A stretch of DNA of 64,000 nucleotides from Streptomyces canus 299MFChir4.1 (lineage in GTDB: Bacteria; Actinomycetota; Actinomycetes; Streptomycetales; Streptomycetaceae): contig NZ_KB911583.1 of NCBI RefSeq assembly GCF_000383615.1, forward strand, positions 186,001-250,000. The letters run 5' to 3'. Each line of letters opens with the position of its first letter. Position 1 is the stretch's first letter. Both the position numbers and the translations under genes were made by a program. Positions 1,541 to 63,415 of this stretch are shown piece by piece. The notes under the pieces are model-generated. The model saw only the letters and a list, made by a program, of their open reading frames with translations, made no database searches and had not been told where the DNA came from.

Positions 1541-2782
1541 ATGCACATCCTCGTGGTGCACAACCGTTACGGCTCGGCGCAGCCGAGCGGCGAGAACAAG
1601 GTCGTCGACCAGGAGGTGGAGCTGCTGCGCGAGGGCGGCCACCGGGTCGAGACGTTCGAGCGGCGCAGCGACGACATCGGCGCCATGTCCCTCCTCGCCA
1701 AGGTCGCGGTGCCCCTGCGGGTGCCGTGGAACCCGGCGGTCCGCACCGAACTCGCCACCCGGCTCCGCACCGAGCGGCCGGACATCGTCCACGTGCACAA
1801 CGTCTTCCCGCTCCTGTCGCCCGCGGTGCTCGCCGCCTGCGCCGACGCCGGCGTGCCCGCCGTGGCGACGCTGCACAACTACACCCAGGTCTGCCCGCCC
1901 GGCACCCTGCAGCGGGACGGCCGGCCGTGCACCGACTGCGTCGGGTCGACGCCACTGCCCGCCGTCCGGCACGGCTGCTACCGCGACTCCCGCCTCGCGA
2001 CCGTGCCGCTCGCGGTCAGCCTGTCGGCCAACCGGCGGCGGTGGTGGTCCGGCGTGGAGCGCTTCTTCTGCATCTCCGCGGCGCAGCGTGACGTCCTCGT
2101 GGGTGCCGGGATGCCGGCCGAACGGCTGGCGGTGAAGCACAACTTCGTGCCCGACCCGGACGCGCGCCGAACGGACGCCGGCGAGCATGTGCTCTATCTC
2201 GGCCGGCTCGCGGAGGCCAAGGGCGTACGGCTGCTCATGGCCGCGTGGGACGAGATCGCGGCGAGCGGCGGTGTGGGAGTACCGCTCGTGATCGCCGGCA
2301 CGGGACCACTGGAGGCAGCGGTCACCGCCTGGGCGGCGGGCCGGGACGACGTGCGGTACGTCGGCCTGTACGACACGGCGGAGTGCCAGAAGGCCATCGC
2401 GCGGTCGGTCGCCGTGGTGGCTCCCTCGACGTGGCTGGAGGCGTTCGGCCTGGTGGTCGTGGAGGCGATGGCGGCCGGGGTACCGGTCGTCGCGGCCGGG
2501 CACGGCGCCTTCGTCGAACTCGTCGAGGACGGGGTGACCGGGCTGCTGCACGAGCCGGGCGAGTCCGCCTCGCTCTCGTCCTGCATACGCCGGATCGCGG
2601 GCGAGCCGGCCGGCAACCGGGAGATGGGCGAGGCGGCCCGGCGCCGTTACGAAAAGGGTTTCAGCCCGACGGTCGGCCTTGACCGTCTGGTTGACGAGTA
2701 CCGCTCCGTGATCGCGGGGCGGTCAGCACGGACTCGCGGCGGGGACACCCGCGCGAGCAGGGGGGATGGGGACAACAGATGA
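1541..2782 (+). CDS. GT4 family glycosyltransferase
   Basis: A 413-residue GT-B enzyme. The N-terminal domain has the HNRYG...SGENKVVDQE start typical of group 1 transferases. The C-terminal domain has the E-x7-E signature (EAFGLVVVEAMAAGVPVVA) that holds the nucleotide-sugar donor. It probably adds one sugar to a lipid-linked intermediate on the cytoplasmic face. ATG 1541 is preceded by a GGAGGTGAGG Shine-Dalgarno sequence, and the stop overlaps the next start (ATGA). Donor and acceptor are unknown. Confidence 0.85.
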   Translation: MHILVVHNRYGSAQPSGENKVVDQEVELLREGGHRVETFERRSDDIGAMSLLAKVAVPLRVPWNPAVRTELATRLRTERPDIVHVHNVFPLLSPAVLAACADAGVPAVATLHNYTQVCPPGTLQRDGRPCTDCVGSTPLPAVRHGCYRDSRLATVPLAVSLSANRRRWWSGVERFFCISAAQRDVLVGAGMPAERLAVKHNFVPDPDARRTDAGEHVLYLGRLAEAKGVRLLMAAWDEIAASGGVGVPLVIAGTGPLEAAVTAWAAGRDDVRYVGLYDTAECQKAIARSVAVVAPSTWLEAFGLVVVEAMAAGVPVVAAGHGAFVELVEDGVTGLLHEPGESASLSSCIRRIAGEPAGNREMGEAARRRYEKGFSPTVGLDRLVDEYRSVIAGRSARTRGGDTRASRGDGDNR

Positions 2783-4038
2783 CACGATGCCGACTGTGCG
2801 GCTCGGAGGCGATGGCGAGCGTCGTCGACCTCGGGGCGACGCCACCGTGCGAGAGCTTTCTCGCCGCGGACCAACTCGACCAGCCGGAGCCCGCGTACCC
2901 GCTGCACCTGCGGGTCTGCACCGACTGCTGGCTCGCGCAGATCCCACCGCTGATCACGCCGGAGGAGACGTTCAAGGAGTACGCGTACTTCTCCTCGTTC
3001 TCGACCTCCTGGGTGGAGCACGCGCGCACGTTCGTCGCCGACGCCGTGGCGCGCGTGGGTCTCGGCGCCGAGGGCTCCGACGCCTTCGTGGTCGAGGTCG
3101 CGAGCAACGACGGGTACCTGCTGAAGCACGTGGTGGACCGGGGGATCCGCTGCCTCGGCATCGAGCCCTCGGTGAACGTCGGCGCCGCGGCGCGCGACGC
3201 GGGCGTGCCCACGCTCACGGAGTTCCTGAGCCCGGACACCGGCTCGGCCGTCCGCGCCGAGCACGGCCCGGCGAACCTGGTCGTGGCCAACAACGTGTAC
3301 GCGCACATCCCGGACGTGGTCGGCTTCACCCAGGGCCTGCGCGCCCTCGTCGCCGACGACGGCTGGGTCTCCATCGAGGTGCAGCACCTGCTGACCCTGA
3401 TCGAGGAGAACCAGTACGACACGATCTACCACGAGCACTTCCAGTACTACACGGTCGCCTCCGCGATCCGGGCCCTCGCGAGCGGCGGACTGACGCTCGT
3501 GGACGTCGAGTTGCTGCCCACGCACGGCGGCTCCATCCGGCTGTGGGCCCGGCCGGCCGAGGTGGCCGGCGAGCCGTCGCAGCAGGTGGCCGACGTGCTG
3601 GCCCGGGAGAAGGCCGCCGGGTTGCAGGAGCTGTCCGGGTACGCCGAGTTCTCCGCCCGGGTGGCCAAGGTGCGCCGGGACCTCCTGAAGTTCCTCATCG
3701 AGGCGGCCGAGCGCGGCGAGACGGTCGTCGGCTACGGCGCCCCGGGCAAGGGCAACACCCTGCTCAACCACTGCGGCATCCGGCCCGACCTGCTCGCGTA
3801 CACGGTCGACCGCAACCCCTACAAGCACGGCAGGTTCACGCCGGGCACCCGTATCCCGATCCTGGCGCCCGAACAGATAGCCGCCGACAAGCCGGACTAC
3901 GTGCTCGTCCTCCCATGGAACCTGCGGGCCGAGCTGGTCGAGCAGCTGTCCTTCGTGCACGACTGGGGCGGCCGGCTGGTCTTTCCCATCCCGGAAATGA
4001 GCATCGTCGAGGTCGCGTCGCGAAAGGTCACAGCATGA
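2779..4038 (+). CDS. NovU/TylCIII-type sugar C-methyltransferase
   Basis: This 419-residue protein has three parts: an N-terminal zinc knuckle (C4, C7, C47, C50), a Rossmann SAM-binding core (VVEVASNDGYLL near residue 110) and a C-terminal domain with GYGAPGKGNTLLNH. That layout is the signature of deoxysugar C-methyltransferases such as NovU, CloU and TylCIII, which methylate C3 or C5 of a 4-keto-6-deoxysugar nucleotide. It lies directly before a cytidylyltransferase, so the substrate is probably a CDP-4-keto sugar, giving a branched-chain sugar. Both ends overlap neighbours by 4 bases. Confidence 0.85.
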   Translation: MTRCRLCGSEAMASVVDLGATPPCESFLAADQLDQPEPAYPLHLRVCTDCWLAQIPPLITPEETFKEYAYFSSFSTSWVEHARTFVADAVARVGLGAEGSDAFVVEVASNDGYLLKHVVDRGIRCLGIEPSVNVGAAARDAGVPTLTEFLSPDTGSAVRAEHGPANLVVANNVYAHIPDVVGFTQGLRALVADDGWVSIEVQHLLTLIEENQYDTIYHEHFQYYTVASAIRALASGGLTLVDVELLPTHGGSIRLWARPAEVAGEPSQQVADVLAREKAAGLQELSGYAEFSARVAKVRRDLLKFLIEAAERGETVVGYGAPGKGNTLLNHCGIRPDLLAYTVDRNPYKHGRFTPGTRIPILAPEQIAADKPDYVLVLPWNLRAELVEQLSFVHDWGGRLVFPIPEMSIVEVASRKVTA

Positions 4039-27893: not shown

Positions 27894-29534
27894 ATGGCCT
27901 TTGACCCCTCGTACCTGCACCTCGTCTTCCCGAACACACGGTTCGAGGCACTGCTCTACGGTCGGGCCTCCCGCGACCCCAACAAACGCGGAGACAGCGT
28001 CGCAGACCAGCTCGGATGGGGCCGCACCCTCTGCCGCGAGTACAACTGGCACGTCGCCGAGGAGTTCAAAGACACCGGCCTGTCCGCCTCCCGTCACGCC
28101 AAGCAGGCCCGCGACGACTTCGAGGAACTCCTCGAAACCATCGAAGACACACCCCCCACCCAAGGAGTCATTCGCATCGTCGTCGCCTACGAAGCCTCCC
28201 GCTACTACAGAGACCTCGAAGCCTACGTACGCCTCCGCGCCGCCTGCATGAGCTCCGGAGTGCTGCTCTGCTACAAGGGCACCGTCTACGACCTCAGCCG
28301 CAGCGACGACCGGAAGGCCACTGCCCAGCACGCCATCGACGCGGAGGCTGAAGCTGACGACATCCGCGACCGAAACCTACGCACTGCCGCCCGCACCGCG
28401 GATGCCGGTGACCCGCACGGGCGGCTGCTCTTCGGCTACACCCGCGACTACGAGACGGTCAACGGGCAGCTGCGGTGCGTCCGGCAGTACGAGCACCCGA
28501 AGACGGGGCAGTACGTCTACCGCGCGCTGGTGCACATCGACCAGGGCCGCTCGGTGGGCTCTCTGGTCAAGTGGCTCAACAGCGAAGAGGATGCAGCCCG
28601 CCCGTTCGGCTACCCGTGGACGGCACAGAACGTCCGGCTCATGCTCCTCAACCGCGCCTACCTGGGGGAGCGGAAGAACCGAGGCAACTGGAAAAAGGCG
28701 ACCTGGCCCCCGATCCGCGGCCTGGAGACCCCGGAGGGCCGTGCCATGTTCAACCGGGTCACGGCCCGGCTGACCGACTCGGGCCGGCGTACGCAGCGCG
28801 GGTCGGCGCCTGTGCATCTCCTGTCGCTCATCGGGCTCTGCGGGCCCTGCGGTGATCATGCTCTGCTGAAGGCGCGGCCAAGCAGCACGAAGGGGCGGTC
28901 GGCGCTGCACTGTTCGGAGAAGCGCGACACCGTCATCCGTGAGGACGTCATCGACTCCTACGTCGAGGAGGCGGTCATCGCCTGGTTCACGGACAAGGGC
29001 CGGGCCACTTCCGCTCTCGTGCCCAGCGGGGACAACGTCCAGGAGAAGGTGTCGGCTGCGCAGCGCCGCATCAACGCCTACGAGGAGCAGCTGGCCGAGG
29101 CGAAGGCGTTGTCCGAGGAGTTCGACGAGGAGACGGGCCGCTTCAAGCTGTCCTCGTCAGCGTTCGCGTCTATGGAGCGGAGCCTGTCGCCCAAGCTGGA
29201 GGCGGAGCGGAAGACGCTCCGGACAGTGACCGGGGTTCCTCCTGTGCTGCTGGCACTCATCGGCGCGCCCGACCCGGACGTGGTGTGGAACGGGGTGCCG
29301 GAGGGGGAGGGGCGGCCAGGTGTCGCGGGCTTGACGATGGAACAGAAGCGGGAGGTCATCAGGAAGGTGGTGACCGTGCGCTTGTGGAAGGCGTCCAGGC
29401 CAGGGATTCAACGTCTGGAGCCGGGACGGATCACGCTGTCGTTTGTGGGGGAGCCGGGTTTCAGGGACCGACCACTCCGTGCTCCCGCGAACGCTCCCGC
29501 TGTTGGGTCGGAAGGTCCTTCGGGAACTGAATGA
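27894..29534 (+). CDS. int: Large serine recombinase (phage integrase)
   Basis: A 546-residue integrase. The N-terminal catalytic domain has YGRAS with nucleophile Ser26 and Arg24, then DSVADQLGWGR, SASRHAKQARDDFEEL and the second Arg motif EASRYYRD. The recombinase domain (FGYTRDYE...WTAQNVRLMLLNRAYLGE) and a zinc ribbon (CGPCGDHALLKARPS...ALHCSEK) follow, with a coiled coil near residues 385-440 that normally controls attP/attB specificity. It inserts and, with a directionality factor, excises the prophage. The 3' end overlaps a convergent gene by 74 bases. Confidence 0.93.
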   Translation: MAFDPSYLHLVFPNTRFEALLYGRASRDPNKRGDSVADQLGWGRTLCREYNWHVAEEFKDTGLSASRHAKQARDDFEELLETIEDTPPTQGVIRIVVAYEASRYYRDLEAYVRLRAACMSSGVLLCYKGTVYDLSRSDDRKATAQHAIDAEAEADDIRDRNLRTAARTADAGDPHGRLLFGYTRDYETVNGQLRCVRQYEHPKTGQYVYRALVHIDQGRSVGSLVKWLNSEEDAARPFGYPWTAQNVRLMLLNRAYLGERKNRGNWKKATWPPIRGLETPEGRAMFNRVTARLTDSGRRTQRGSAPVHLLSLIGLCGPCGDHALLKARPSSTKGRSALHCSEKRDTVIREDVIDSYVEEAVIAWFTDKGRATSALVPSGDNVQEKVSAAQRRINAYEEQLAEAKALSEEFDEETGRFKLSSSAFASMERSLSPKLEAERKTLRTVTGVPPVLLALIGAPDPDVVWNGVPEGEGRPGVAGLTMEQKREVIRKVVTVRLWKASRPGIQRLEPGRITLSFVGEPGFRDRPLRAPANAPAVGSEGPSGTE

Positions 29535-36471: not shown

Positions 36472-37283
36472 CCGACACCGACACCAGCGTCCAGGCCGTC
36501 GCCGCCCTTGCGCAGCAGGCACTCAAGGCGCAAGACGTCGAGCCCGGCGGCATTTACCTCGTCGCCACCGCCAACGGCGACGTCAAAAAGTTCGACCTCA
36601 CCGGGCCCGAGTACACCGGGGCCCTCGCGAGGAAGACCGGCATCACAACCGTCCGAGACGCCGCGTCCTTCCTCGTCTACTACGCCAAGCACAAGGGCGA
36701 CGCCACCGAGGTCTACAGCGACGTCGAGGCCCTGTCTGTCACCGCCGTCCTCAACGCCCACTCCGCCGACGAGCCTGACTTCGGCGACCACCGTCTCGTT
36801 CTCGGCCTGCGCCGCACCAAGGCCTGGCAGCAGTGGCTCGCCCTCGACGACAAGTTCGTCGACCAGGACGCCTTCGCGAACTTCCTCGAGGACCAACTGC
36901 CATACCTCGTCGAGCCCGACGCCGCGACCATGCTGGAGATCGCGCAGTCCATCAAGGCGACGACGAAGGCCGAGTTCCAGTCGAGCAGCCGACTCCAGTC
37001 TGGCGAGCGGAAGTTCTCCTACGTCGAGGAGACCAAGGGCACCGCCGGCGCGAAGGGCGAGCTGCAGATCCCCGAGACATTCAAGATCGCTGTACCGCCG
37101 TTCGAGGGCGCCGACGCCTACTCGATGACCGCGCGCTTCAAGTACCGCATCGACCGTGGCCAACTCGCCCTCGGATTCAAGTTGGAGCAGCCCGAGGAGC
37201 GCGCCAAGGCCGCGTTCGCCGACGTCCTGACGGCCATCGGTGAGGGCGTCGACACGCCGATCCTCAACGGCACCCCGGTCTGA
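36468..37283 (+). CDS. DUF2303 family protein
   Basis: A 271-residue protein of the DUF2303 (YfdQ-like) group. It has FLVYYAKHKGDATEVYSDVEA near residue 65, VTAVLNAHSADEPDFGDHR, and the long central helical domain AFANFLEDQLPYLVEPDAATMLEIAQ. Members are phage genes next to recombination and replication functions, with no proven activity. Same transcription unit as the nuclease and OB-like protein. Confidence 0.72.
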   Translation: MTDTDTSVQAVAALAQQALKAQDVEPGGIYLVATANGDVKKFDLTGPEYTGALARKTGITTVRDAASFLVYYAKHKGDATEVYSDVEALSVTAVLNAHSADEPDFGDHRLVLGLRRTKAWQQWLALDDKFVDQDAFANFLEDQLPYLVEPDAATMLEIAQSIKATTKAEFQSSSRLQSGERKFSYVEETKGTAGAKGELQIPETFKIAVPPFEGADAYSMTARFKYRIDRGQLALGFKLEQPEERAKAAFADVLTAIGEGVDTPILNGTPV

Positions 37284-37386: not shown

Positions 37387-39924
37387 TTGAGCGACACCAC
37401 ACCCGACACCCTGGCCGCAGCGCTGCAGCTGCACGCGGCCGGCTGCTCGGTGGTCGCCGTCCGAGCGGACGGAAGCAAACACCCGCGGGGTTCATGGAAG
37501 ACCTTCCAGTCCGAGCGGGTCAGCGAAGAGCAGCTGCACGCCTGGTTCGCCAACGGGCACCCCGGGATCGGCATCATCTGCGGCGCCGTCTCCGGCGGAC
37601 TCGAAATGCTCGAACTCGAAGGCCGCGCCGTGGACGAAGGCGTCCTCAACCAACTCGCCGAAATCTTCCTCGGATCCGGGCTCGGCGAACTCTGGCAGCG
37701 CATCGCCACCGGATGGCTCGACCGCAGCCCCTCCGGCGGACTCCACTTCCACTACCGCGTCCACGGGATGCCCGTCCCCGGAAACACGAAGCTTGCCTCC
37801 CGGCTCGCCCGCGAAGACGAGTACACCGCGGACGAGATCGAGCTGAAGAAGAAGCACCCGAACAAGAAGATCCTCCGCGGCCTCATCGAAACCCGCGGCG
37901 AAGGCGGCTTCGTCGTCACCGCACCCTCGCACGGGCCCGTCCACCCCTCCGGCCAGCCCTACGAACTCCTCGCCGGCGGCCCCGACACCATGCCCGTCCT
38001 CACCGCGGAGGAACACCAGTCAGTCCACGCGATCTGCCGCATGATCGACGCCGTCCCCTCGGACGAGACGCCCGATCACTTTCCAGGCGCCTCGAAAGTG
38101 ATGGCCGAGCCCCTCGACGAGGCCGCAGCGTTCCTCTTCTCCTCGGGTGGCGGCGAAATCGGCGAGGGCGGAATCACCCCGCTGGACGACTTCGACGCGA
38201 AGACCTCATGGGCCGACATCCTCACCCCGCACGGGTGGAAGCTGATGTTCGTCTCCGGACAGACCTCCTACTGGCAGCGCCCCGGGAAAGACGGCCGCGA
38301 GCCCTCCGCCACCACCGGCCGAGCCGCGGACCGCGACCGCCTTTACGTCTTCACCACCAGCACCGAATTCACCCCCGAAGTCCCCTACACCAAGGCCGGT
38401 GCCTACGCCCTTCTCAACCACGGGGGAAACCACTCCGCGGCCGCGAGCGCCCTGCGCCGCCAAGGCTTCGGCCAGCCCGCGCCCGAGCCCGTCCGGCACC
38501 TCACCGCGGTGCCGAGCAGCCCCGCCGCGCCCACCGACGGGACAGCCGCCCTCAACGTCCACCCCCACCCCACCGCCGACACCGGGCCGGGCACCTACAC
38601 CCGCACCGACGACGGGAACGCCCTCCGCCTCATCGACGAACACGAAGCCGAAATCCGCTACGTCCCCCAGCGCGGCAAGTGGCTCCACTGGAACGGACAC
38701 CGCTGGGAGTGGGACGACGCAGGCCTCGTCCGCGAAATGGCCCGCACCATCGCCCGCGCACTGCCCAACGGGGAAGGCGAAGCCAAACACCGCGCCCGCA
38801 GCCTCTCCCAATCCGGCATCAGCGCCATGGTCACCATGGCCCAGACCGACCCCCGCGCCGTCGCCCTCATGGAAACCCTCGACGCGCACCCCCTCCACCT
38901 GAACACCCCCGCCGGCACCGTCGACCTCACCACCGGGCAGATCAGCCCCCCAGACCCGGCCGCCATGCACACCCGCACCACCAGCGTCGCCCCCGACGCA
39001 ACCCTGCCCACACCCCGCTTCGCACAGTTCCTCGCCGACACCTTCGGCGAACACTCCGACATCGCCGCCTTCGTGCAGCGCCTCGCCGGATACTCCGCCA
39101 GCGGCGACACCCGCTTCCACATCCTCCCGTTCCTCAACGGGCCCGGCGGCAACGGCAAGTCCGTGTTCCTCGACCTCCTGCGCATGCTCCTCGGGGACTA
39201 CGCGGCCACCGCGCCGAACACATTCCTCATGGCCGGGCAGCAGCAGCACGAGACCGAAGTCGCCCGCCTCCAGGGCCTCCGCCTCGTCGTCGTCTCCGAG
39301 GTCAACCAGGACGCGCGCTTCGACGAGGCCAAGATGAAGCTCCTCACCGGCGGCGACGCGCTCACCGCACGGTTCATGCGCCAAGACCACTTCACCTTCG
39401 AACCCACCCACCACCTGTGGCTGATGGGCAACCACCTCCCCGCGGTGAAGGCCGGCGGCGACTCGTTCTGGCGGCGCCTGCGCCTCATCCCCTTCACCCG
39501 CAGCGTCCCGCCAGAGAGAAAGATCGAGAACCTCGCCCGGATCCTCGCCGAGGAGGAAGGCCCCGGGATCCTCGCCTGGATCATCGCGGGCGCCGTCGAT
39601 GTCTTCGACAAGGGGCTGCGCGAGCCCGGCACGGTCATGGCGTTCACGGAGACCTACGCGGAGGAAGAGGACTCCCTTGCCCGCTTCATGGCGGACTGCT
39701 GCCACCTCGGCGGCGGCAACCACGTTGCGATCAACACCGCCAAGCTTCGCGCCGCATACGACGACTGGTGCCGCGCCGAAGGCGAGACCCCGCTGAAGCC
39801 GCAGGTGTTCGGCCGAGAGCTGCGCACCCGCTTCGGCATCGAGCAGACCCGTTCCAACGGGCGCCGCTTCTACGTGGGCGTCGCACTCCTTGCCCACCCC
39901 GAGGACGAGGAGCGCGACGAGTGA
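37387..39924 (+). CDS. DNA primase/polymerase-helicase fusion (prim-pol plus D5/P4-like)
   Basis: An 845-residue replication protein. The N-terminal third is a bifunctional primase-polymerase domain (LHAAGCSVVAVRADGSKHP, HPGIGIICGAVSGGLEMLELEG, GGLHFHYRV). After a Pro-rich linker near residue 380 comes a P4/D5-type SF3 helicase with Walker A GPGGNGKS at residues 585-592 and VVVSEVNQDARFDEAKMK, then a winged-helix end. It starts at TTG 37387 after AAGGAGCC. It should prime and unwind the origin, which probably lies in the iteron array immediately downstream. Confidence 0.88.
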   Translation: MSDTTPDTLAAALQLHAAGCSVVAVRADGSKHPRGSWKTFQSERVSEEQLHAWFANGHPGIGIICGAVSGGLEMLELEGRAVDEGVLNQLAEIFLGSGLGELWQRIATGWLDRSPSGGLHFHYRVHGMPVPGNTKLASRLAREDEYTADEIELKKKHPNKKILRGLIETRGEGGFVVTAPSHGPVHPSGQPYELLAGGPDTMPVLTAEEHQSVHAICRMIDAVPSDETPDHFPGASKVMAEPLDEAAAFLFSSGGGEIGEGGITPLDDFDAKTSWADILTPHGWKLMFVSGQTSYWQRPGKDGREPSATTGRAADRDRLYVFTTSTEFTPEVPYTKAGAYALLNHGGNHSAAASALRRQGFGQPAPEPVRHLTAVPSSPAAPTDGTAALNVHPHPTADTGPGTYTRTDDGNALRLIDEHEAEIRYVPQRGKWLHWNGHRWEWDDAGLVREMARTIARALPNGEGEAKHRARSLSQSGISAMVTMAQTDPRAVALMETLDAHPLHLNTPAGTVDLTTGQISPPDPAAMHTRTTSVAPDATLPTPRFAQFLADTFGEHSDIAAFVQRLAGYSASGDTRFHILPFLNGPGGNGKSVFLDLLRMLLGDYAATAPNTFLMAGQQQHETEVARLQGLRLVVVSEVNQDARFDEAKMKLLTGGDALTARFMRQDHFTFEPTHHLWLMGNHLPAVKAGGDSFWRRLRLIPFTRSVPPERKIENLARILAEEEGPGILAWIIAGAVDVFDKGLREPGTVMAFTETYAEEEDSLARFMADCCHLGGGNHVAINTAKLRAAYDDWCRAEGETPLKPQVFGRELRTRFGIEQTRSNGRRFYVGVALLAHPEDEERDE

Positions 39925-40154
39925 TCACCGCCCTCAGTGACAGCAGTGACCGATACGTGACCGTTTCGATGACCCTACGGTCACTGTCAAAAACCGCATC
40001 TGACCTGCAACAACGCTCGCACAGTGACCGCAGTGACCGTAAATCCCTAGTTCCAGCCCCACGCGCACGCAAGGTGTTCAACCTGAGAAACCCCCTGATC
40101 GGTCACTGCTGTCACTGCCCCACCGGCACCACACACAGCAGGAGCCACCCATGA
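39921..40154 (+). CDS. Possible small reading frame across the iteron array
   Basis: A 77-residue frame that starts at GTG overlapping the primase stop and ends overlapping the next ATG. The product is Ser/Arg/His-rich with no fold pattern. Its content follows directly from the repeated CAGTGAC units beneath it, so translation is doubtful. It is listed because the overlaps at both ends fit the operon style. Confidence 0.25.
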   Translation: MITALSDSSDRYVTVSMTLRSLSKTASDLQQRSHSDRSDRKSLVPAPRARKVFNLRNPLIGHCCHCPTGTTHSRSHP

Positions 40155-40242
40155 CCCGCTCTGACCAGCCGAAATGGCTTGCTGAACGCATCGACCAAGC
40201 CAGTGACCGTATCCGCGAAGGCACCTGCCCGCGCTGTCACTG
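39935..40242. repeat. Iteron array, candidate prophage replication origin
   Basis: Nine copies of CAGTGAC (either strand) occur in 308 bases: forward at 39935, 39944, 40022, 40031 and 40201; reverse at 39980, 40102, 40111 and 40236. Six form three doublets with 9-base spacing. The 18-mer CAGTGACAGCAGTGACCG (39935-39952) recurs exactly inverted at 40100-40117, with CAGTGACCG repeated directly at 40022-40039 between. P4-like helicases bind iterons to open origins, so this is the best origin candidate; the last two copies lie in the next gene. Confidence 0.65.
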
Positions 40243-40495
40243 CCCCGTCCTACGCGCCCGCGCCGGCCGCGTCGCCGCCCTCGACGTGATCGCCGACCCG
40301 GAACCCCTCGACACCACCGCCGAACTCCTCGCCCGCCTCGAAGGCCGCCTCACCTGGCACCTGACAACCAACGCCCTCGGAGTACGGCGCCTCACCTGGC
40401 GAACCCACTTCCACATCCGCGCAGGCCCCCCGAAACACCCCGTCGTCCGCGACCACCAATGCCCGCCCCAACCCGTACAGGAGACGCTGCTGTGA
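40151..40495 (+). CDS. Small zinc-knuckle protein
   Basis: A 114-residue basic protein with CPRCHCPV at residues 26-33 and a lone C-terminal Cys (HQCPP), a possible zinc site for nucleic-acid binding. It lies between primase and RusA; its 5' end carries the last two iteron copies. No family recognised. Confidence 0.62.
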   Translation: MTRSDQPKWLAERIDQASDRIREGTCPRCHCPVLRARAGRVAALDVIADPEPLDTTAELLARLEGRLTWHLTTNALGVRRLTWRTHFHIRAGPPKHPVVRDHQCPPQPVQETLL

Positions 40496-40956: not shown

Positions 40957-41387
40957 AGATCCGCGACGACATCGCCGAACTCCTCTTGGCCGGGATGCCA
41001 CAAGCCCACATCTGCCGCGAGCTCCGCTGCTCGCCTCTCACCGTGCAGCGCACCCGCGAAGCCCTCGGCCTGCCCGCGCCCAAAACCTGCCGAGTCCTGC
41101 CGACCACGCCTGAGGCTGCGTTCGCCCAGTACACGCGCCCCATCGACGGCGGCCACCTTCAGTGGGCCGGCCCGCTCAAGAACCGTGCCCCGTTCTTCGT
41201 TCACCAAGGGCAGCACCACTACGCCCGCCCCTTCTCCTTCCGCCTGCAGCACGGCCGCGGCCCGATCGGCAACGTCACCCCCAGCTGCACCGTGGAGCGC
41301 TGCGTGGCCGGCCGCTGCCTGCAAGACCGGCCGATGCGAGAGCACACGAACTCCCTGTACAAGGCGATCTTCGGGGGTACGGCATGA
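40953..41387 (+). CDS. HTH plus degenerate HNH-like domain protein
   Basis: A 144-residue protein. It starts with an HTH (DDIAELLLAGMPQAHICRELRCSPLTVQRTREALG, residues 4-38). A second domain (HLQWAGPL...FSFRLQHGRGPIGNVTPSCTVERCVAGRCLQD) resembles the C-terminal domain of the next gene, with the same W-x-G, F-R-L-x-x-G-R and C-x4-C-V spacing. The histidine that follows the last Cys there is missing here. It probably binds DNA; nuclease activity is doubtful. Confidence 0.62.
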   Translation: MKIRDDIAELLLAGMPQAHICRELRCSPLTVQRTREALGLPAPKTCRVLPTTPEAAFAQYTRPIDGGHLQWAGPLKNRAPFFVHQGQHHYARPFSFRLQHGRGPIGNVTPSCTVERCVAGRCLQDRPMREHTNSLYKAIFGGTA

Positions 41388-42073
41388 TCCGGATCAGTCC
41401 CCGTGGCAGCCGCCCCAGTGCACCCTGCACTGCCAACCCCGACGCCATGTACGAGACCAGCGACACCGGCATCGAGGAAGCCAAGGCCGTCTGCCGTCGC
41501 TGCCCCGTCATGGACCAGTGCGGACAGTGGGCACTGGACAACCGGGAGCCGTACGGCACATGGGGCGGCCTCTCCGAGAAAGAGCGCCGCAAGATCCTGC
41601 GCCGCCGCGGCATCAAACCCCTCAACACCACTGACGAGGAGCCGCGCCCGCGGACCTTCCAGTCCCTATACGACGAACGCACCGTCCACCTCAAAGACGG
41701 GCATGTCGCCTGGACCGGCGCCATCCCCGTCTACTGCGACGGCGCCTACCACACGCCCGCGCAGATCGCATTCCGTCTCGACCGCGGCCGGCCCGCCGAA
41801 GGGATCGTGCGACGCACCTGCGAGCGGGAGGGCTGCGTACTGGCCTCGCATCTCGCGGACCAGCAGGAGCGGAACCAGCGGCGCGAGCAGGCCTCCAAGT
41901 CGGCAGCCGCGTACTCCGAGAGCGGGCGACTCCTCGCACCGTGCGGCACCCGGTCCGCGTACACGCGGCACGTGAAGCGCGGTGAGCCGATCGACGCGGC
42001 CTGCCGCCAGGCGAACACGGACGCCGACAACCGGCTACGCCGCACCGGCACGACGAAGGCCCTGGCTTCATGA
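41384..42073 (+). CDS. WhiB-family protein with C-terminal HNH-like extension
   Basis: A 229-residue protein. Residues 1-80 form a WhiB domain: C15, C37, C40 and C46 would ligate a 4Fe-4S cluster, followed by YGTWGGLSEKER, the G-[VIT]-W-G-G turn. Ordinary Wbl proteins are about 80-130 residues, so the C-terminal part is an addition: an HNH-like core (VAWTGAI...AFRLDRGRPAEGIVRRTCEREGCVLASHL) and a Cys-containing tail. ATG 41384 overlaps the related preceding gene. Phage Wbl proteins can redirect host transcription. Confidence 0.78.
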   Translation: MIRISPRGSRPSAPCTANPDAMYETSDTGIEEAKAVCRRCPVMDQCGQWALDNREPYGTWGGLSEKERRKILRRRGIKPLNTTDEEPRPRTFQSLYDERTVHLKDGHVAWTGAIPVYCDGAYHTPAQIAFRLDRGRPAEGIVRRTCEREGCVLASHLADQQERNQRREQASKSAAAYSESGRLLAPCGTRSAYTRHVKRGEPIDAACRQANTDADNRLRRTGTTKALAS

Positions 42074-43448: not shown

Positions 43449-44270
43449 GTGAAGTCACCCGTCCCGTACTTCGGCAGCAAGCAGCGCGTCGCTCCGTGGA
43501 TCGTCAGCCTGCTGCCCGGCCACGCCCACTACGTGGAACCGTTCGGCGGCTCTCTGTCGGTGCTGCTCGCCAAGCCGCCGTCGAAGATTGAGACCATCAA
43601 CGACCTCAACCGCGACCTGATGACGTTCTGGCGGGTCCTGCGCGACCAGCCCATCGAACTCGCCCGCGCCTGCACCCTCACCCCGCACAGCCTCGCCGAA
43701 CTCGACGGCGCGTTCGAAGCAGCCGACGACGACATCGAGATCGCCCGCCGCGTCTGGGTGCGCCTCACCCAGGCCCGCTCCAACGGCCTGGAATCGCGGC
43801 GTACCGGCTGGCGGCGGATCATCGGCCCCAATAACGGCGTCTCCATGCCGGCCTACATCGACGCCTACCTCGATCGGCTCGCCCCGGTGGCGGAGCGCCT
43901 GGCCCGCGTGTCGCTGGAGTGCCTGCCAGCGGTCGACCTGATCGCCAAGTACGGAGCCGAGCCGGAAGCCGTCCTGTACGTCGATCCGCCATACCTGGCC
44001 AGCACCCGCAACAGCGCGCACTACGGGCACGAGATGAAGGCCGAGGCCGACCATCGGGAGCTTGCGGCCGCACTGACCGGGTGCCGGGCCGCGGTCGTCC
44101 TGTCCGGCTACCACAGCCCGCTGTACGACGAGCTGTTCGACGGCTGGCACGTCTACGAAACCGCGGCCATGGCCAACAACGGCAACGGCGACAAGACGCG
44201 CACCGAGGTGCTGTGGGCGAACCGTCCGCTCGGTGACCGTCTCGACCTGTTCTCCGACCAGCCCGCATGA
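43449..44270 (+). CDS. Dam-type (D12 class) DNA adenine methyltransferase
   Basis: A 273-residue alpha-class N6-adenine methyltransferase with motif order X-I-TRD-IV: VPYFGSKQRVAPWIV, YVEPFGGSLSVLL (SAM loop), NDLNRDLMTFWRVLRD, and the catalytic VDPPYLA near residue 178. It transfers methyl from SAM to adenine in a short DNA site. No cognate restriction enzyme is adjacent, so it is probably an orphan methylase that shields phage DNA or alters timing. GTG start, ribosome site in the repeat. Confidence 0.9.
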   Translation: MKSPVPYFGSKQRVAPWIVSLLPGHAHYVEPFGGSLSVLLAKPPSKIETINDLNRDLMTFWRVLRDQPIELARACTLTPHSLAELDGAFEAADDDIEIARRVWVRLTQARSNGLESRRTGWRRIIGPNNGVSMPAYIDAYLDRLAPVAERLARVSLECLPAVDLIAKYGAEPEAVLYVDPPYLASTRNSAHYGHEMKAEADHRELAAALTGCRAAVVLSGYHSPLYDELFDGWHVYETAAMANNGNGDKTRTEVLWANRPLGDRLDLFSDQPA

Positions 44271-44347
44271 CCACGAGCACGGCCGCACGCGCTGCTATCG
44301 CGTGCGGCCGGCCCGCCCCGAACCCTACGACCGCGAGGAGTCGCACC

Positions 44348-49006: not shown

Positions 49007-49429
49007 CTACGGCCGCCACTCCTCGCGGTAGCCGGGCCTCTCCTTGTAGGCCAGCGCGTACAGGCGCAGCGTCTTCTCCAGCCGGGCGTAGACGCCGGTC
49101 GTGAACGTCTCGTGGTGGTCGTGGATGCCCTTGGCGAAGACGAGCAGATCCCGCTTCGCGTCGATCTCGGCCAGCACCCGAGCCGGATCCCACTCCGCGA
49201 TGTGGGCTGTGGTCGCCGAGGCGTCGATATACCCGGGCCCGCGCTTCCCGCCCATCGGCTGGTTGTGGGTGTAGACCGTCGCTGAAGCGATCAGCCACTC
49301 CGGGTCATACACAGACCAGGCGCCGACATCCTCTGCGTCCGTTCCGAGCCACGGCCCAGGCGGTGCTGCCCGCGCGATCCGCTCGTCCTCGTCGAACTGC
49401 TCGCCCAACCACCGCACCAGCTCATCCAT
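49007..49429 (-). CDS. DUF6221-like protein
   Basis: A 140-residue protein: MDELVRWLGEQFDEDERIARAAPPGPW, then an internal HIAEWDPARVLAEIDAKRDLLVFA and a C-terminal helix ending ALAYKERPGYREEWRP. This arrangement is typical of a family abundant in Streptomyces and its phages (DUF6221 by my recollection), function unknown. It overlaps the upstream HTH gene, forming a two-gene leftward island. Confidence 0.72.
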   Translation of the reverse strand: MDELVRWLGEQFDEDERIARAAPPGPWLGTDAEDVGAWSVYDPEWLIASATVYTHNQPMGGKRGPGYIDASATTAHIAEWDPARVLAEIDAKRDLLVFAKGIHDHHETFTTGVYARLEKTLRLYALAYKERPGYREEWRP

Positions 49430-58320: not shown

Positions 58321-58853
58321 ACGCCACACAGCCGGTGCCGGCCGAGCCACAACCGCCCGGCCAGCCCCGGGACGCCAGCAACCAATTCGCCAGCACCATC
58401 ACCCAAGACGAACGCGCCGCCTCCGCCGCACGCCTCAAAGCCGCCAACCCCCGCATGACCTACCAACAGATCGCGGACCAACTCGGCTACAGCGACAAGG
58501 GCAACGCCTGGCGCGCCATCCAAAAGTGCCGCCAGGCCGTACTCCGCCAGGCTGGCGCCGAGCTCGTCGCATCGCAGGCTGCGCAGTTGGACAACATGTT
58601 CGTCGCGGCGATGGAGGTCCTGGAACGCGATCACGTGGTGGTCTCCCACGGCAAGGTCATCACCATGCCTGACGAGGACGGCACGGAGAGGCCCCTGGTC
58701 GATGACGGCCCCAAGCTCGCCGCGATCAGGGAGATGCGCGCCATCAACGAGTCGTACCGCAAGCTCCTCGGCGTCGACCAGCCTCAGCAAGTCGCCGTGT
58801 CCGGGTCCGTCCGCTACGAGGTCGTCGGCGTCGACACCGCGGACCTCACGTGA
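58305..58853 (+). CDS. Terminase small subunit-like protein
   Basis: A 182-residue protein with an HTH in the first half (NPRMTYQQIADQLGYSDKGNAWRAIQKCR, residues 48-76), then a helical oligomerisation region (LVASQAAQLDNMFVAAMEVLE) and an acidic end. It lies directly before the large terminase with a 4-base overlap. Small terminases bind the packaging site and load the large subunit. The assignment rests on HTH plus position. Confidence 0.72.
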   Translation: MTTGNDATQPVPAEPQPPGQPRDASNQFASTITQDERAASAARLKAANPRMTYQQIADQLGYSDKGNAWRAIQKCRQAVLRQAGAELVASQAAQLDNMFVAAMEVLERDHVVVSHGKVITMPDEDGTERPLVDDGPKLAAIREMRAINESYRKLLGVDQPQQVAVSGSVRYEVVGVDTADLT

Positions 58854-60196
58854 CGACCGCCCTCGACCAGGACGCCATCGTCCGGTACGAACCCCGCGGC
58901 GCAGCACGAGACCTCTTCAAGGCCCGCGACTCCGAGGTCTTCATGGCGGGCCCGGCCGGCACCGGGAAGAGCCTCGCGTCGCTGTTCCGGCTGCACTTGA
59001 CCGCCCTGCACAACCCGGACGCCCGCTTCCTCATCGTCCGTAAGACCGCGGTGTCCCTCGGCTCCACGACCCTCGTCACCTACGACAAGAAGGTCGCCGC
59101 GGACGCTCTCGCGCGCGGCATCGTCCGCTGGTTCGGCGGGTCGGTGCGGGAGGCGCCCGGCTACCGGTACTCGAACGGCGCGAAGATCGACGTCGGCGGG
59201 ATGGATAAACCCGAGAAGATCATGTCGGCCGAGTACGACATGGTCTTCGCCGACGAAGCCACCGAGCTCACCATCGACGACTGGGAAGCCATCGGCACCC
59301 GCCTCCGCAACGGCAAGCTGTCGTGGCAGCAGCAGATGGGCGCCTGCAACCCCGCCCACCCCGCGCACTGGATCAAGCAGCGCTGCGACCAGGGCACGGC
59401 TCGCATGCTGCTCTCCCGGCATGTCGACAACCCGGCCTACGTCAACGCTGACGGCACCTTCACCGACGTCGGCCGGGAGTACTTCAAGAAGCTCGACGCG
59501 CTCACCGGCGTCCGCAAACTCCGCCTCCGTGACGGGATCTGGGCCGCCGCCGAGGGCCTCATCTACGAGGGCTTCGACGAGGCCGTCCACCTCATCGACC
59601 CGTTCACGATCCCCGCCTCCTGGACGCGGTGGATCACCGTGGACTTCGGCTACACCAACCCGATGGTCATGCAGTGGTGGGCCGAGGACGGCGACGGCCG
59701 GCTGTTCCTGTACCGCGAGCTGTACCACACGCGCCGCCTGGTGGAGGACATGGCCGTCCAGGCGCGCGAGCTGATGGTGTGGCCGTCTGGGCAGTGGCGG
59801 GAGCCGCAGCCCCGCGGCGTGATCTGCGACCACGACGCCGAGGACCGGGCCACGCTGGAGAAGCACCTCCAGCTGCGGACGACGGCCGCGAACAAGGCTG
59901 TGAGCCCCGGACTTCAGGCCGTGCAGTCCCGCCTGAAGCCCGCAGGGGATGGCAGGCCGCGGCTGTTCATCCTGCGGGGCGCACTCGTCGAGCGGGACGC
60001 CGACCTGGACGCGGCGAAGAAGCCGGCGTGCACGGAGGAGGAGATCACGGGCTACGTGTGGGCGGTAAAGCCGGGCAACAAGGCGGGGCTGAAGGAAGAG
60101 CCGGTGAAGGAGAACGACCACGGGATGGACGGGATGCGGTACATGGTCGCGGAGCGGGATCTGGGCGCGCGCCCGTCGGTGCGCTGGCTTTCGTAG
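58850..60196 (+). CDS. terL: Terminase large subunit
   Basis: This 448-residue packaging motor has Walker A GPAGTGKS at residues 34-41, Walker B YDMVFADEA at 129-137 with its Glu, and the coupling GACNP motif. The RNase H-like nuclease carries Asp265 (VDFGYTNP) and Asp327/Asp329 (CDHDAED). It pumps DNA into the prohead and cuts it. GTG 58850 overlaps the small subunit stop. The length is normal for this type. Confidence 0.92.
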   Translation: MTTALDQDAIVRYEPRGAARDLFKARDSEVFMAGPAGTGKSLASLFRLHLTALHNPDARFLIVRKTAVSLGSTTLVTYDKKVAADALARGIVRWFGGSVREAPGYRYSNGAKIDVGGMDKPEKIMSAEYDMVFADEATELTIDDWEAIGTRLRNGKLSWQQQMGACNPAHPAHWIKQRCDQGTARMLLSRHVDNPAYVNADGTFTDVGREYFKKLDALTGVRKLRLRDGIWAAAEGLIYEGFDEAVHLIDPFTIPASWTRWITVDFGYTNPMVMQWWAEDGDGRLFLYRELYHTRRLVEDMAVQARELMVWPSGQWREPQPRGVICDHDAEDRATLEKHLQLRTTAANKAVSPGLQAVQSRLKPAGDGRPRLFILRGALVERDADLDAAKKPACTEEEITGYVWAVKPGNKAGLKEEPVKENDHGMDGMRYMVAERDLGARPSVRWLS

Positions 60197-60234
60197 GGTT
60201 CCCACAATCAGGTCTGATGGAGGGCGGGGCGGCT

Positions 60235-60426
60235 GTGAAGGTTCGGAAGGTACCTGTGCGCAGGTGGCTACAGGGATTGAATAGAGGTATGCCGGTTGTA
60301 CTTGATGCGACTGGCCTTATGCTGTTGTCGGGTTCCGCCATGTTGTGGAACCTGATCGCTGGCGTCGCCGCAGCTGGAATCAGCTGCTTCGTCCTGAACT
60401 GGCGGTGCTACAGCGGCAAACAGTGA
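60235..60426 (+). CDS. Small membrane protein between terminase and portal
   Basis: A 63-residue protein with a basic N-terminus (KVRKVPVRRWLQG) and one or two hydrophobic segments (LDATGLMLLSGSAMLWNLIAGVAAAGISCFVL by composition). GTG 60235 has GGAGGGCGG upstream; ATG 60217 is an alternative. A membrane protein inside the packaging operon is unusual; its composition is less GC-rich than its neighbours. Confidence 0.5.
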   Translation: MKVRKVPVRRWLQGLNRGMPVVLDATGLMLLSGSAMLWNLIAGVAAAGISCFVLNWRCYSGKQ

Positions 60427-60438
60427 GGGGAGGGGTAG

Positions 60439-62124
60439 GTGGCCAGAACCCTCCTCGGCGCGATCCTCAACCGCGCTGGCACGGCCGCCACCAACCTCCC
60501 CGTCCCCCTCGTAGGCCGCTCCCAGACCTACAGCGGAGGCCTCTTCGGCTCCCGGCGCGACGCCGAAGCCCAGATGCGGGCCATGACCGCGACCGGCACC
60601 CTCTTCTCCATCGTCGACCGCACCAGCAACGCCACCGCACAGGTCGACTGGAAGCTCTACCGCAAGGCCAAGTCCGGACGGCCCGAAGACCGCGTCGAGG
60701 TCACCTCCCACGCGGCCCTGGACCTGTGGAACCGGCCCAACAAGTTCATGCCCAGGCAAGAATTCGTCGAGGCATCCACCCAGCACTACGACCTCACCGG
60801 CGAAACCGAATGGGTCATCGCCCGCGCCCCCGGCATCAAACTGCCGCTGGAGATGTGGCCCGTCCGCCCCGACCGCATGACCCCCCAGCCGGACCGGGAG
60901 ACGTTCCTGAAGGGCTGGGTGTACACCAGCCCCGACGGCGAGCAGATCCCCCTCGAACTCGACGAGGTCATCCAACTCCGCCGACCGAACCCGTTGGACC
61001 CGTACCGCGGGCTCTCCCCGGTGCTGTCGATCCTCCCGGACTTGGACACCGCCCGGTACGCGGCGGAGTGGTCACGGGCGTTCTTCCTCAACAGCGCGCA
61101 GCCCGGCGGGATCATCGAGGTCCCCGTGCACTTGCAGGACCACGAGTTCGACGAGATGCGCGAGCGGTGGGCCGAGCAGCACAAGGGCGTCGGCAACGCG
61201 CACAAGGTCGCCATCGTCGAGTACGGCGCGAAGTGGGCCGACCGCACCATCAGCCAGCGGGACATGCAGTTCGTGGAGCTGCGCGGCGCAACGAGCGCGG
61301 CGATCCGTGAGGCCTACGGCATCCCGAAGTTCGCGATCGGTGACCTCGACGACGTCAACCGCGCGACCGCGGAGGCGGCGAAGGCCTGGTTCGCGGAGCA
61401 GCTGACGATCCCCCGCCTGGAGCGCATCAAGGGCGCGCTGAACAACGAGCTACTGCCGATGTACGGGCCGACGGCGGAGGGTCTGGAGTTCGACTACGAG
61501 AACCCGGTCCCTGCGGACGCGGAGACCGAGGCGGCCACGCTCACGGCCCGCGCGAACGCGGCGAAGGCCCTCGCCGACGCCAACCTGTGGGCGCCGGAAG
61601 GGATCCTCTCGGCGGTTGGCCTGCCGGAGATGGCGCCGGCGCCGGGCATGGGCGGCGACGGAACGATCAGCCCGCGTGAGCTCGGCGACATGATCCAGTC
61701 GATCTATCTGGGTGTTGGCGTGGTCATCACGTGGGATGAGGCGCGGGACATTCTCAACCGGGCCGGGGCCGGGCTGGACACGAACGTGCCTGCCCCGGTG
61801 TCGATGCCTCAGCGGGGCCGGCGTGCGGCTTCGGGGCCGGTAGAGGGCGAGCCTGAGGGGTCGTGGCCGGAGCTGGTGGCCGCCCTTGTGGAGGGTGGCG
61901 TGCCGGAGGTTGAGGGCGCGCAGCGTTGGGTGGCTGTCGCGGAGTTGGACGACAACACCTGTCAGCCGTGCCGGGACAACGACGGCCAGACCTACAAGAA
62001 CCGGGCGCAGGCCTACAAGGACTACCCGGGCGGCTCCGGCTACGTGCACTGCGTGGGTGCGGAGTACGGCAACGACTGCCGCTGCAAGGTCGTCAAGCGG
62101 CGGAAGACGGAGGACGACGAATGA
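60439..62124 (+). CDS. Portal protein fused to MuF-type C-terminal domain
   Basis: A 561-residue HK97-type portal. Typical portal segments are TLFSIVDRTSNATAQVDWKLYR, VIQLRRPNPLDPYRGLSPV, FFLNSAQPGGIIEVP and AAIREAYGIPKFAIGD. HK97 portals are usually about 400-450 residues. The extra C-terminus ends with LDDNTCQPCRDNDGQTY...GYVHCVGAEYGNDCRCKVV, the Cys pattern of SPP1 gp7/MuF head morphogenesis proteins. It forms the DNA entry ring of the capsid. GTG 60439; ATGA overlap with the next gene. Confidence 0.87.
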   Translation: MARTLLGAILNRAGTAATNLPVPLVGRSQTYSGGLFGSRRDAEAQMRAMTATGTLFSIVDRTSNATAQVDWKLYRKAKSGRPEDRVEVTSHAALDLWNRPNKFMPRQEFVEASTQHYDLTGETEWVIARAPGIKLPLEMWPVRPDRMTPQPDRETFLKGWVYTSPDGEQIPLELDEVIQLRRPNPLDPYRGLSPVLSILPDLDTARYAAEWSRAFFLNSAQPGGIIEVPVHLQDHEFDEMRERWAEQHKGVGNAHKVAIVEYGAKWADRTISQRDMQFVELRGATSAAIREAYGIPKFAIGDLDDVNRATAEAAKAWFAEQLTIPRLERIKGALNNELLPMYGPTAEGLEFDYENPVPADAETEAATLTARANAAKALADANLWAPEGILSAVGLPEMAPAPGMGGDGTISPRELGDMIQSIYLGVGVVITWDEARDILNRAGAGLDTNVPAPVSMPQRGRRAASGPVEGEPEGSWPELVAALVEGGVPEVEGAQRWVAVAELDDNTCQPCRDNDGQTYKNRAQAYKDYPGGSGYVHCVGAEYGNDCRCKVVKRRKTEDDE

Positions 62125-62387
62125 GCGGCAAGCCGCACGCCCTGCGCATCGGCAAGCGGACCGACGGCCCAGGCTGGACCGCCGAACTCGACGGCCAGGA
62201 CATCGCGCCCGCGCTGCGCAGTCTGTCGCTGAGCGTGGACAGCTCTCCTGTGGCGACGGCGCGACTCGACCTCGTCATCGAGGACGTGTCGACGCATGCC
62301 GAGGTGGATGTGTGGATGCCGGACGCGACGAAGGATCTGCTGGTCCGGCTCGGCTGGACCCCGCCCGCCGAGGAGGCCACGCCGTGA
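62121..62387 (+). CDS. Small head-module protein
   Basis: An 88-residue beta-rich protein (ALRSLSLSVDSSPVATARLDLVIEDVSTHAEVDVWM by composition) located between portal and protease. It overlaps both by 4 bases. Short genes at this position are common in Streptomyces siphoviruses; no function is known to me. Confidence 0.62.
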   Translation: MSGKPHALRIGKRTDGPGWTAELDGQDIAPALRSLSLSVDSSPVATARLDLVIEDVSTHAEVDVWMPDATKDLLVRLGWTPPAEEATP

Positions 62388-63415
62388 ACATCGTCATGCC
62401 CGGACGGGCGGCCGCGTTCGCCGCGAGCCAGCGAGAGCGCGCCGAGAAGCAGCGCGAGCAGCTCGGCGTGCAGGCCCGCGACTGGTATCGCATCACCAAC
62501 GCCGCAGACTCTGACGAGGCCGAGGTCATGCTGTACGACGAGATCGGCGGCTGGTGGGGGCGCACCGCCGACGACCTCGTCGCCGAACTCCGCGGCATCA
62601 CCGCCCCCCGGATGCGCGTGCGCATCAACTCGCCGGGCGGGTCGGTGTTCGAGGGCATCGCCATCGCCAACGCCCTGCGCGCGCACCCCGCTTTGGTGAC
62701 GGTGCAGGTCGACAGCATCGCCGCCTCGATCGCCTCGGTGATCGCGATGGCCGGGGACCGCATCGAGATGGCCCCGAACAGCATGCTGATGATCCACGAC
62801 GCGTCCGGGCTGTGCATGGGCAACGCCAGCGACATGGAGGAGATGGCCGAGCTCCTCGACCTGATCTCCGACAACATCGCCGACGCCTACGCCGCCCGGG
62901 CCGGCGGCACCCGCGACGAGTGGCGGGCCCGCATGCGCGCCGAAACCTGGTACCTCCCCGAGGACGCCGTCGACAACGGGCTCGCAGACGCGGCGATCGC
63001 CGCCCCGAAGGCCGCCGACCCTGTCGAGGAGCCTGTCGAGGAGGACGAGCCGGACATGGCCCGGCCGTTCGACCTCGCCGCCTACGGCTACACCGGGCCC
63101 ACCCCGGCCGAGCCGCAGCCCGAGCAGGTCACCCTCACCTTCAACGTCGGCGACGCGGTCGGTGAGCAGGTGCTGGCCGCCTTCCGTGAGATGGCCGCGG
63201 GCCGGAATACCGAGCCCGAAGCGGCCGTCGAGGACGTGGTGGTCGAGGCGCCTGCACCCGAGCCTGTCGCAGTCGCCGAGCCGGAGCAGCCGGCCGCCGA
63301 ACCCGAAGACGGGTGGGCGGCCCTGACCGCCCACCTCACCCAGGACGACGCCTGGTCGGCGCTCGTCACCAACCTGATCGAGCCCGACACGTCGTCCAGC
63401 GCGGCGACGGCCTGA
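62384..63415 (+). CDS. ClpP-like prohead maturation protease
   Basis: A 343-residue protein whose first 210 residues are a ClpP-type serine protease: MRVRINSPGGSVFEGIAIANAL, the nucleophile region DSIAASIASVIAMAGDRIEM, and MLMIHDASG with the catalytic His. The Ala/Glu/Pro-rich C-terminus could act as scaffold, as often fused in HK97-like phages. It processes the capsid protein during assembly. GTG 62384 overlaps the preceding stop; the capsid gene follows by 11 bases. Confidence 0.87.
   Translation: MNIVMPGRAAAFAASQRERAEKQREQLGVQARDWYRITNAADSDEAEVMLYDEIGGWWGRTADDLVAELRGITAPRMRVRINSPGGSVFEGIAIANALRAHPALVTVQVDSIAASIASVIAMAGDRIEMAPNSMLMIHDASGLCMGNASDMEEMAELLDLISDNIADAYAARAGGTRDEWRARMRAETWYLPEDAVDNGLADAAIAAPKAADPVEEPVEEDEPDMARPFDLAAYGYTGPTPAEPQPEQVTLTFNVGDAVGEQVLAAFREMAAGRNTEPEAAVEDVVVEAPAPEPVAVAEPEQPAAEPEDGWAALTAHLTQDDAWSALVTNLIEPDTSSSAATA

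Follow-up and report, generated by a model that had tools for sequence, protein, structure and literature searches.

The window, by which we mean the whole stretch of 64,000 nucleotides analysed here, carries a prophage that starts close to a serine integrase gene (27894-29531, phrog_95) and extends at least to 58850-63412, where genes for terminase, portal and head protease are located; no right end was seen within the window. Since it has head genes of its own, the element is a prophage and not a phage satellite. The host can be taken to be a Streptomyces, as a host gene at 2779-4035 has 93% identity to records from that genus. Its replication block is made up of genes for an exonuclease-like protein, a DUF2303 protein and a primase-helicase, followed by an array of short repeats, a small open reading frame (ORF) and a gene for a RusA-like resolvase; a WhiB-like transcription factor (41384-42073, Pfam PF02467) is also encoded in this block. 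The primase-helicase matched PF09250, PF08706 and PF19263 in Pfam and phrog_2478 (E 1.7e-169), and its translation most likely begins at the TTG at 37387, which has a GGAG just upstream, rather than at the program-listed GTG at 37240. A preliminary description of this DNA had placed the repeats immediately after a primase-helicase gene, with P4-type enzymes as the parallel. The gene does lie directly 5' of the array, but its product combines a Prim-Pol domain (PF09250) with a D5/SF3-type helicase and has no Toprim (DnaG-like) domain. A single protein unites Prim-Pol, SF3-type helicase and a winged helix (Table 1).

Table 1. Features of the primase-helicase gene and of the repeat array behind it, in positions of the window.
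Feature	Position	Strand	Remarks
Prim-Pol/D5_N/SF3-type primase-helicase gene, proposed initiator	37387-39924	+	845 aa, TTG start
C-terminal winged-helix codons	39673-39900	+	residues about 763-838, AlphaFold2
Presumed recognition helix codons	39799-39834	+	residues 805-816, PQVFGRELRTRF; helix H72-83 of domain model
Iteron doublet A (CAGTGACAG CAGTGACCG)	39935-39952	+	left arm of 20-nt inverted repeat 39935-39954
Single inverted iteron copy	39980-39986	-	exact word
Iteron doublet B, direct half of dyad	40022-40039 (words 40022-40037)	+	
Core between facing doublets, 64 bp	40038-40101	.	
Alternating purine-pyrimidine tract CACGCGCACGCA, near core centre	40060-40071	.	12 bases
Iteron doublet C, inverted half of dyad	40100-40117 (words 40102-40117)	-	right arm 40098-40117
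Small ORF, phrog_16156, CPRCHC motif	40151-40495	+	context, outside origin
Iteron copy in ORF 40151-40495, possibly coincidental	40201-40207	+	present in L011 too
Iteron copy in ORF 40151-40495, possibly coincidental	40236-40242	-	present in L011 too

The array at 39935-40242 comprises nine exact copies of CAGTGAC or its complement GTCACTG, beginning at 39935, 39944, 39980 (minus strand), 40022, 40031, 40102 (minus), 40111 (minus), 40201 and 40236 (minus), precisely as first described, and 10 bases separate the first copy from the end of the stop codon at 39924. Six of the copies form three doublets with 9-bp spacing, again as described, and only seven are intergenic because those at 40201 and 40236 fall inside the small ORF. 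Dinucleotide shuffles of the whole window contained on average 9.36 copies in 64 kb; scaled to 308 bases this is about 0.05, similar to the earlier estimate of 0.04, and the remainder of the 64 kb holds five further copies. The inverted repeat, initially given as 18 bases (39935-39952 with 40100-40117), is exact as stated but extends to 20 nt (39935-39954 with 40098-40117); a nearer pair of arms, 40022-40039 and 40100-40117, matches at 94%. Within this nearer pair lies a dyad in which a direct doublet (40022-40037) faces an inverted one (40102-40117) across a 64-bp core, its four words being identical (28/28). At 96 bp (40022-40117), the dyad is an inverted-repeat element of roughly 100 bp that follows the gene. 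Across the 10.48-Mb host genome, perfect matches to the doublet pattern were confined to the window's array; with up to two mismatches there were 10 matches, three of them exact, and a reversed control pattern gave two. The core has a G+C content (0.53-0.62 in 60-base windows over 39920-40129) lower than that of the DNA upstream (0.65-0.75) without being AT-rich. Its alternating purine-pyrimidine tract is unremarkable taken alone, since runs of at least 12 bases occur in 5.1% of background windows.

Arrays of the same word were found behind the primase stop codon of several relatives, where the preliminary description had suggested looking for them: L011 and L009 carry eight copies (primases 88% and 75% identical) and L012 and L017 carry seven (78% and 61%), all with the same doublets as the window. 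That description also held that repeats lost beside conserved proteins would speak against an origin. This was not the pattern observed, because arrays are kept behind the primases, and where the 7-mer is replaced the new words follow the same geometry; L015 and L016 (primases 70-71% identical) have CAGTGCC in nine and eight copies, and L013 (62%) has eight copies of GTGACGC. Among close relatives, then, the layout is conserved and the word is not. L017, although less similar overall than L015 and L016, shares with the window both its word and the helix start PLKPQ, in place of the PLPSR/PLASR of L015/L016, and L117, a more distant homologue, combines CAGTGAC with a helix, PQVFGRELRTRF, identical to that of the window. 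L117 came from a scan of viral contigs for the doublet pattern, which returned 74 stretches, seven of them with at least eight copies within 400 bases; a primase was present in six of these seven. Of these six, L066 is the record of the window itself, L105 and L115 correspond to L012 and L011, and L112 repeats L017 (by eye), which leaves L067 and L117 as new loci. A scan of genome contigs with a single primase query yielded one locus, and a near-mode search for primase plus array among plasmids yielded no match. Searching phages with the intergenic DNA by blastn gave short matches, covering 10-19% of the query among the matches listed, and was set aside. Eight CAGTGAC copies with doublets were also seen at 248-590 of L046, a 1.4-kb viral-contig fragment that showed no primase.

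For a wider survey we pooled loci from the relative scans, a same-genus genome search (30 loci), the pattern scan and single records; the sample is not random, as three relative scans contributed at most their best 80 each. From 303 loci with a helicase, 281 were usable, having a near-complete C-terminus, enough downstream DNA and no N, and 108 representatives were left after removal of near-duplicates. The dyad detector looked within 373 bases around the stop codon for a 7-mer present twice in direct and twice in inverted orientation, with periods of 8-10 bp and a gap of 40-110 bp. At a threshold of 26/28 it was positive in 62 of the 108 representatives, compared with 0.68% of 1912 background windows taken elsewhere in these loci and with 0.09% of 2160 shuffles; an earlier, exact-match detector had been positive in 7/2037 background windows. 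The dyad was present in 3/6 streptococcal-type loci and in 59/89 others, mostly viral contigs, and in none of the 13 same-genus homologues tested (about 45% identical); the 46 representatives below 26/28 were these 13, the other three streptococcal-type loci and 30 of the 89.

The geometry was nearly fixed in the 59 detections among the 89 loci (the streptococcal loci were pooled apart). Periods of 9/9 bp were found in 45, and the facing gap measured 63 bp in 14 detections and fell within 61-65 bp in 30, with a second group of gaps near 92-100 bp to which the phage TM4 belongs. The longest alternating purine-pyrimidine run reached at least 11 bases in 51 detections, and in 40 of these it lay inside the core, with a relative centre of 0.49 (10-90%: 0.43-0.58). 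Alternating runs of at least 20 bases occurred in 41/89 loci, against 0/1762 background windows and no shuffle, and runs of at least 14 in 60/89, against 1.4% of background windows and 4.9% of shuffles. The steps of these tracts are chiefly CG/GC and AC/CA. Because the tracts had no excess of palindromy (z 0.17, standard error 0.16, n=37), it is alternation rather than dyad symmetry that seems to be conserved in them, even though 21 of the 62 cores folded better than shuffles. No long alternating run was found in the mycobacteriophages tested or in the streptococcal-type loci. On the primase strand the central tracts contained 189 AC/CA and 85 GT/TG steps, an approximately twofold bias that might reflect priming sites.

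Modelling of the primase-helicase gave a candidate for the part that reads the repeats. An AlphaFold2 model of the C-terminal domain, for which all of the 62 selected sequences except L320 and L332 were used (60 in total), had a mean pLDDT of 73.5, with 84-90 over residues 31-100; a whole-protein model from eight sequences was poor (mean pLDDT 50.6), its winged-helix part reaching 69-86 in 10-residue blocks. In a second-look alignment of the domain model, RFX DNA-binding domains came out on top (Z 10.6 and 10.0), followed by the P4 origin-binding domain 1ka8 (Z 8.6, rmsd 2.7, 78 aligned) and, after both, by the C-terminal part of AsfvPrimPol (Z 8.0). In the plain Foldseek list 1dp7 was the sole match with E below 0.001, and 1ka8 was absent among the matches listed. 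The likeness of the modelled winged helix to 1ka8 is one of shared fold, and the helix listed in Table 1 would be the one that contacts DNA.

The similarity of the iterons was associated with that of this domain. Over 62 loci, the partial Mantel correlation of iteron similarity with the C-terminal 63 residues, given the helicase, was 0.275 (p 0.0005), while that with the helicase, given the winged helix, was -0.07; the 25-residue recognition segment alone gave 0.195 (p 0.006). When 63-residue windows were slid along the protein (n=41), the last two (residues 772-844) ranked first, and a second, weaker peak of 0.207 was located at residues 562-624. Permuting the words among close relatives only gave p 0.001, it being understood that such permutations remove shared ancestry incompletely. 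At matched helicase identity, winged helices were more alike in same-word pairs in all four bands, as in that of 55-65%, where their similarity was 0.46 for the same word and 0.38 for different words; counting changes of word class on trees by parsimony told nothing either way (38 vs 39 changes). RFX half-sites read GTNRCC, and GTNRC was present on one strand in 37 of the 62 words, a count inflated by related words, whereas 200 draws of random 9-mers averaged 6.7 and never exceeded 13. Judged by these comparisons of sequences, the repeat word goes with the C-terminal winged helix more closely than with the helicase part. Together with the P4-like fold of the model, this agrees with the original proposal that the upstream protein reads the array through its C-terminal winged helix, whose candidate preferred target would be the CAGTGACNG doublets.

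Several replicons of known or annotated origin are arranged in a comparable manner. P4 alpha is a primase-SF3 helicase whose C-terminal winged helix binds origin repeats, and the window protein is like it in that domain as far as fold goes. P4 has a primase of the Toprim type, according to the available part of PMC4234260, unlike the Prim-Pol (PF09250) of the window. For phage Sfi21, record AF115103 annotates 302 bp behind the primase as the origin of replication. This non-coding stretch also contains facing doublets (28/28) behind the primase gene; however, its period is 8, its gap 73 and its core AT-rich, and its primase, of 382 aa, is shorter and shares 20% identity with that of the window across the helicase part. 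In SaPI/PICI elements, as described in the accessible portions of PMC6092414 and PMC7581432, the initiator gene is followed directly at its 3' side by the origin, in which two iteron sets flank a core, as in the window, and Rep is said to appear to bind as two hexamers. These elements are satellite islands and their core is AT-rich, in contrast to the prophage with head genes and the core G+C of 0.53-0.62 seen here, and to the alternating purine-pyrimidine centre of many of the window's relatives. SaPI Rep and Cch2 of SCCmec both read iterons via their C-terminal domains, those bound by Cch2 being short and located downstream of the operon (available text of PMC7581432); direct repeats alone are needed for Cch2 binding, and its associated primase differs (CCPol-MP).

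The Sulfolobus plasmid pRN1 offers a further parallel: one of its proteins combines Prim-Pol, SF3 helicase and winged helix, and an element of about 100 bp lies behind the gene for it. In the available part of PMC4234260 this element is a stem-loop behind orf904 that is required for replication, still works outside the transcript, is stated to lack iterons and showed no specific binding in gel shifts or footprints. In our own reading, which goes against the published one, the stem may be seen as iteron doublets, since it contains TGTCCA doublets of period 9 around a core of 62-64 bp (26/28). It differs from the window in being published as a stem-loop, in its single dyad and AT-rich core, and in belonging to an archaeal plasmid.

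Taken together, the arrays behind the primases, the association between word and domain, the modelled fold and the layout, which resembles that of the annotated Sfi21 origin and of the pRN1 replication element, support the proposal made at the outset that 39935-40117 is the replication origin of the prophage, read by the upstream primase-helicase, and we assign this reading a probability of roughly 0.87. On the other side weigh the 46 representatives below the detection threshold, the phages Shambre1 (no array) and BPP-1 (no dyad), the second association peak at residues 562-624 and the pRN1 results, with their negative binding assays and stem-mutation rescue.

An origin could instead be recognised as structure, with the arms extruding a cruciform or stem-loop on which the initiator assembles and the 9-bp repetition being secondary. 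Such recognition has been proposed for pRN1 and for BIP-1, and in pRN1 it is favoured because changing one arm of the stem abolished function and restored symmetry rescued it (PMC4234260, in the part available). It would also fit the agreement of the arms through the 2-nt spacer in 37 of the 45 dyads with 9/9 periods, the complementarity inward of the doublets (0.33-0.71, vs 0.25 at random) and the 21 of 62 cores that folded better than shuffles (z <=-2.5). Symmetry between the arms was partial: of 18 informative columns, six were mirrored (outer-outer/inner-inner), none was swapped and 12 were neither. Outward of the doublets, however, complementarity was 0.38-0.42 over four positions and then 0.16-0.33, the additional same-orientation doublets or triplets of the window, L009 and L137 cannot all pair, and the repeat word tracks a DNA-reading domain. 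Moreover, the window's own core folded no better than its shuffles (z +1.0), and the alternating tracts lack excess palindromy, as noted above. We regard recognition by structure as unlikely.

A different phage or host protein might read the origin, for example the product of the small ORF, with its CPRCHC motif and its homologues in 22/109 loci searched by tblastn and in phage VWB. This is quite improbable, given that L012 keeps the array without a detectable homologue of the ORF, that only 16 of the 61 dyad-bearing representatives besides the window have one (short loci, E 1e-3), and that AcaML1 has a 28/28 dyad beside a gene annotated as a putative polynucleotidyltransferase instead. We likewise give very little credence to the repeats being operators through which the primase-helicase or another regulator controls transcription of the replication operon. 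Although the array is intergenic, stands ahead of the downstream gene and has WhiB-like and weak HTH matches nearby, it occurs once, it persists in L012, where no homologue of the downstream ORF was detectable, its word follows the primase winged helix, and a scan of 39800-40300 for promoters of the sigma-70-like type and for terminators found none. That the array would act as RNA, an inverted-repeat hairpin in a transcript controlling the mRNA, is scarcely credible to us: the 226-nt strand does fold at -74.1 kcal/mol, compared with -54.9 (sd 4.1) for shuffles (z -4.65), yet any long inverted repeat would give such folding, the region had no Rfam match up to E 1, and it would leave unexplained the 9-bp direct doublets, the additional copies that share an orientation and the association with a domain that binds DNA.

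Under the favoured reading of the array as an origin recognised by the primase-helicase, the RFX/P4-like winged helix would bind each 9-bp unit, and each of the facing doublets would receive its own set of initiator, the two sets probably forming SF3 rings directed towards one another; that the rings load face to face is perhaps somewhat better than an even bet. The facing initiators would open the 64-bp core, and the Prim-Pol part would then prime the exposed strands, so that replication could leave in both directions. Upstream of the dyad, the further doublet and single copies may serve as added sites for loading or copy control. In GC-rich relatives the central alternating tract might be the point of opening or priming that replaces an AT-rich element, a role that we put forward as perhaps possible, with less than even confidence.

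This kind of origin is already known from P4, SaPI/PICI and pRN1; what appears to be new is that it is spread through tailed phages with hardly varying geometry, that its core alternates, and that word and reading domain change together. Among open-licence papers we found no earlier report of the layout in tailed phages, and the part of PMC11302927 available to us held nothing on phage origins. It is conceivable, though we advance it tentatively, that replicons with SF3/D5 primase-helicases in archaeal plasmids, tailed phages and satellites share one origin design, in which an RFX-fold winged helix would read GTNRC-like half-sites in a pair of 9-bp doublets that face each other at a distance of about 63 bp, and the word would evolve with the reading domain. 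In GC-rich genomes a central alternating, Z-DNA-prone tract would take the role of the AT-rich opener, and the class would include both the stem-loop of pRN1 and the origin of PICI elements.

Homologues of the primase were detected by tblastn in 1009 of 50,697 phage records, and a layout recognisable behind the primase gene would provide a predicted start of replication for many phages. Six of nine named phages (TM4, ZoeJ, Nibb, Cheetobro, AcaML1 and Peas) had a dyad of 27-28/28 within 380 nt, the gaps being 90-103 in the mycobacteriophages ZoeJ, Nibb and Cheetobro. The origin is predicted at 44168-44298 in TM4 and at 49045-49170 in ZoeJ, phages that can be grown on laboratory hosts. The dyad overlaps genes annotated as hypothetical proteins in ZoeJ and Peas, and a hypothetical protein is annotated in the dyad stretch of TM4 as well. 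In RootBeer and GMA4 the arrays are located further downstream, with seven copies of AGTGACA and 11 of GGCACCC, respectively. Shambre1 had no comparable array within 860 nt, and BPP-1, which is near-identical to BIP-1, had no dyad in 350 nt (20/28). Beyond these predictions, the many natural words paired with many reading domains make up a data set on how origin specificity changes, and the centred alternating core raises the question of how a GC-rich origin opens without an AT-rich element.

Some observations made along the way concern neighbouring arrangements. In phage VWB, where the small ORF has a homologue, neither primase nor array was seen over the 1.5 kb inspected. The same-genus helicase homologues, about 45% identical, occur in many genomes, some of them as close opposed pairs, such as G149:C4:106321-107763 and 110480-111886 (loci L018-L043). 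At L146, L147, L148, L149, L154 and L179, genes that match the profile in its Prim-Pol part only, up to about position 365, are followed by dense heptamer arrays, for example AAAGGGT 10-11 times in 350 bases, and a separate initiator may operate there. Finally, the Arthrobacter phages Peas and RootBeer (L118 and L403) contain, as judged by eye, two segments in succession that resemble the core and its alternating tract and have AGTGAC copies on either side, suggesting a duplicated origin unit.
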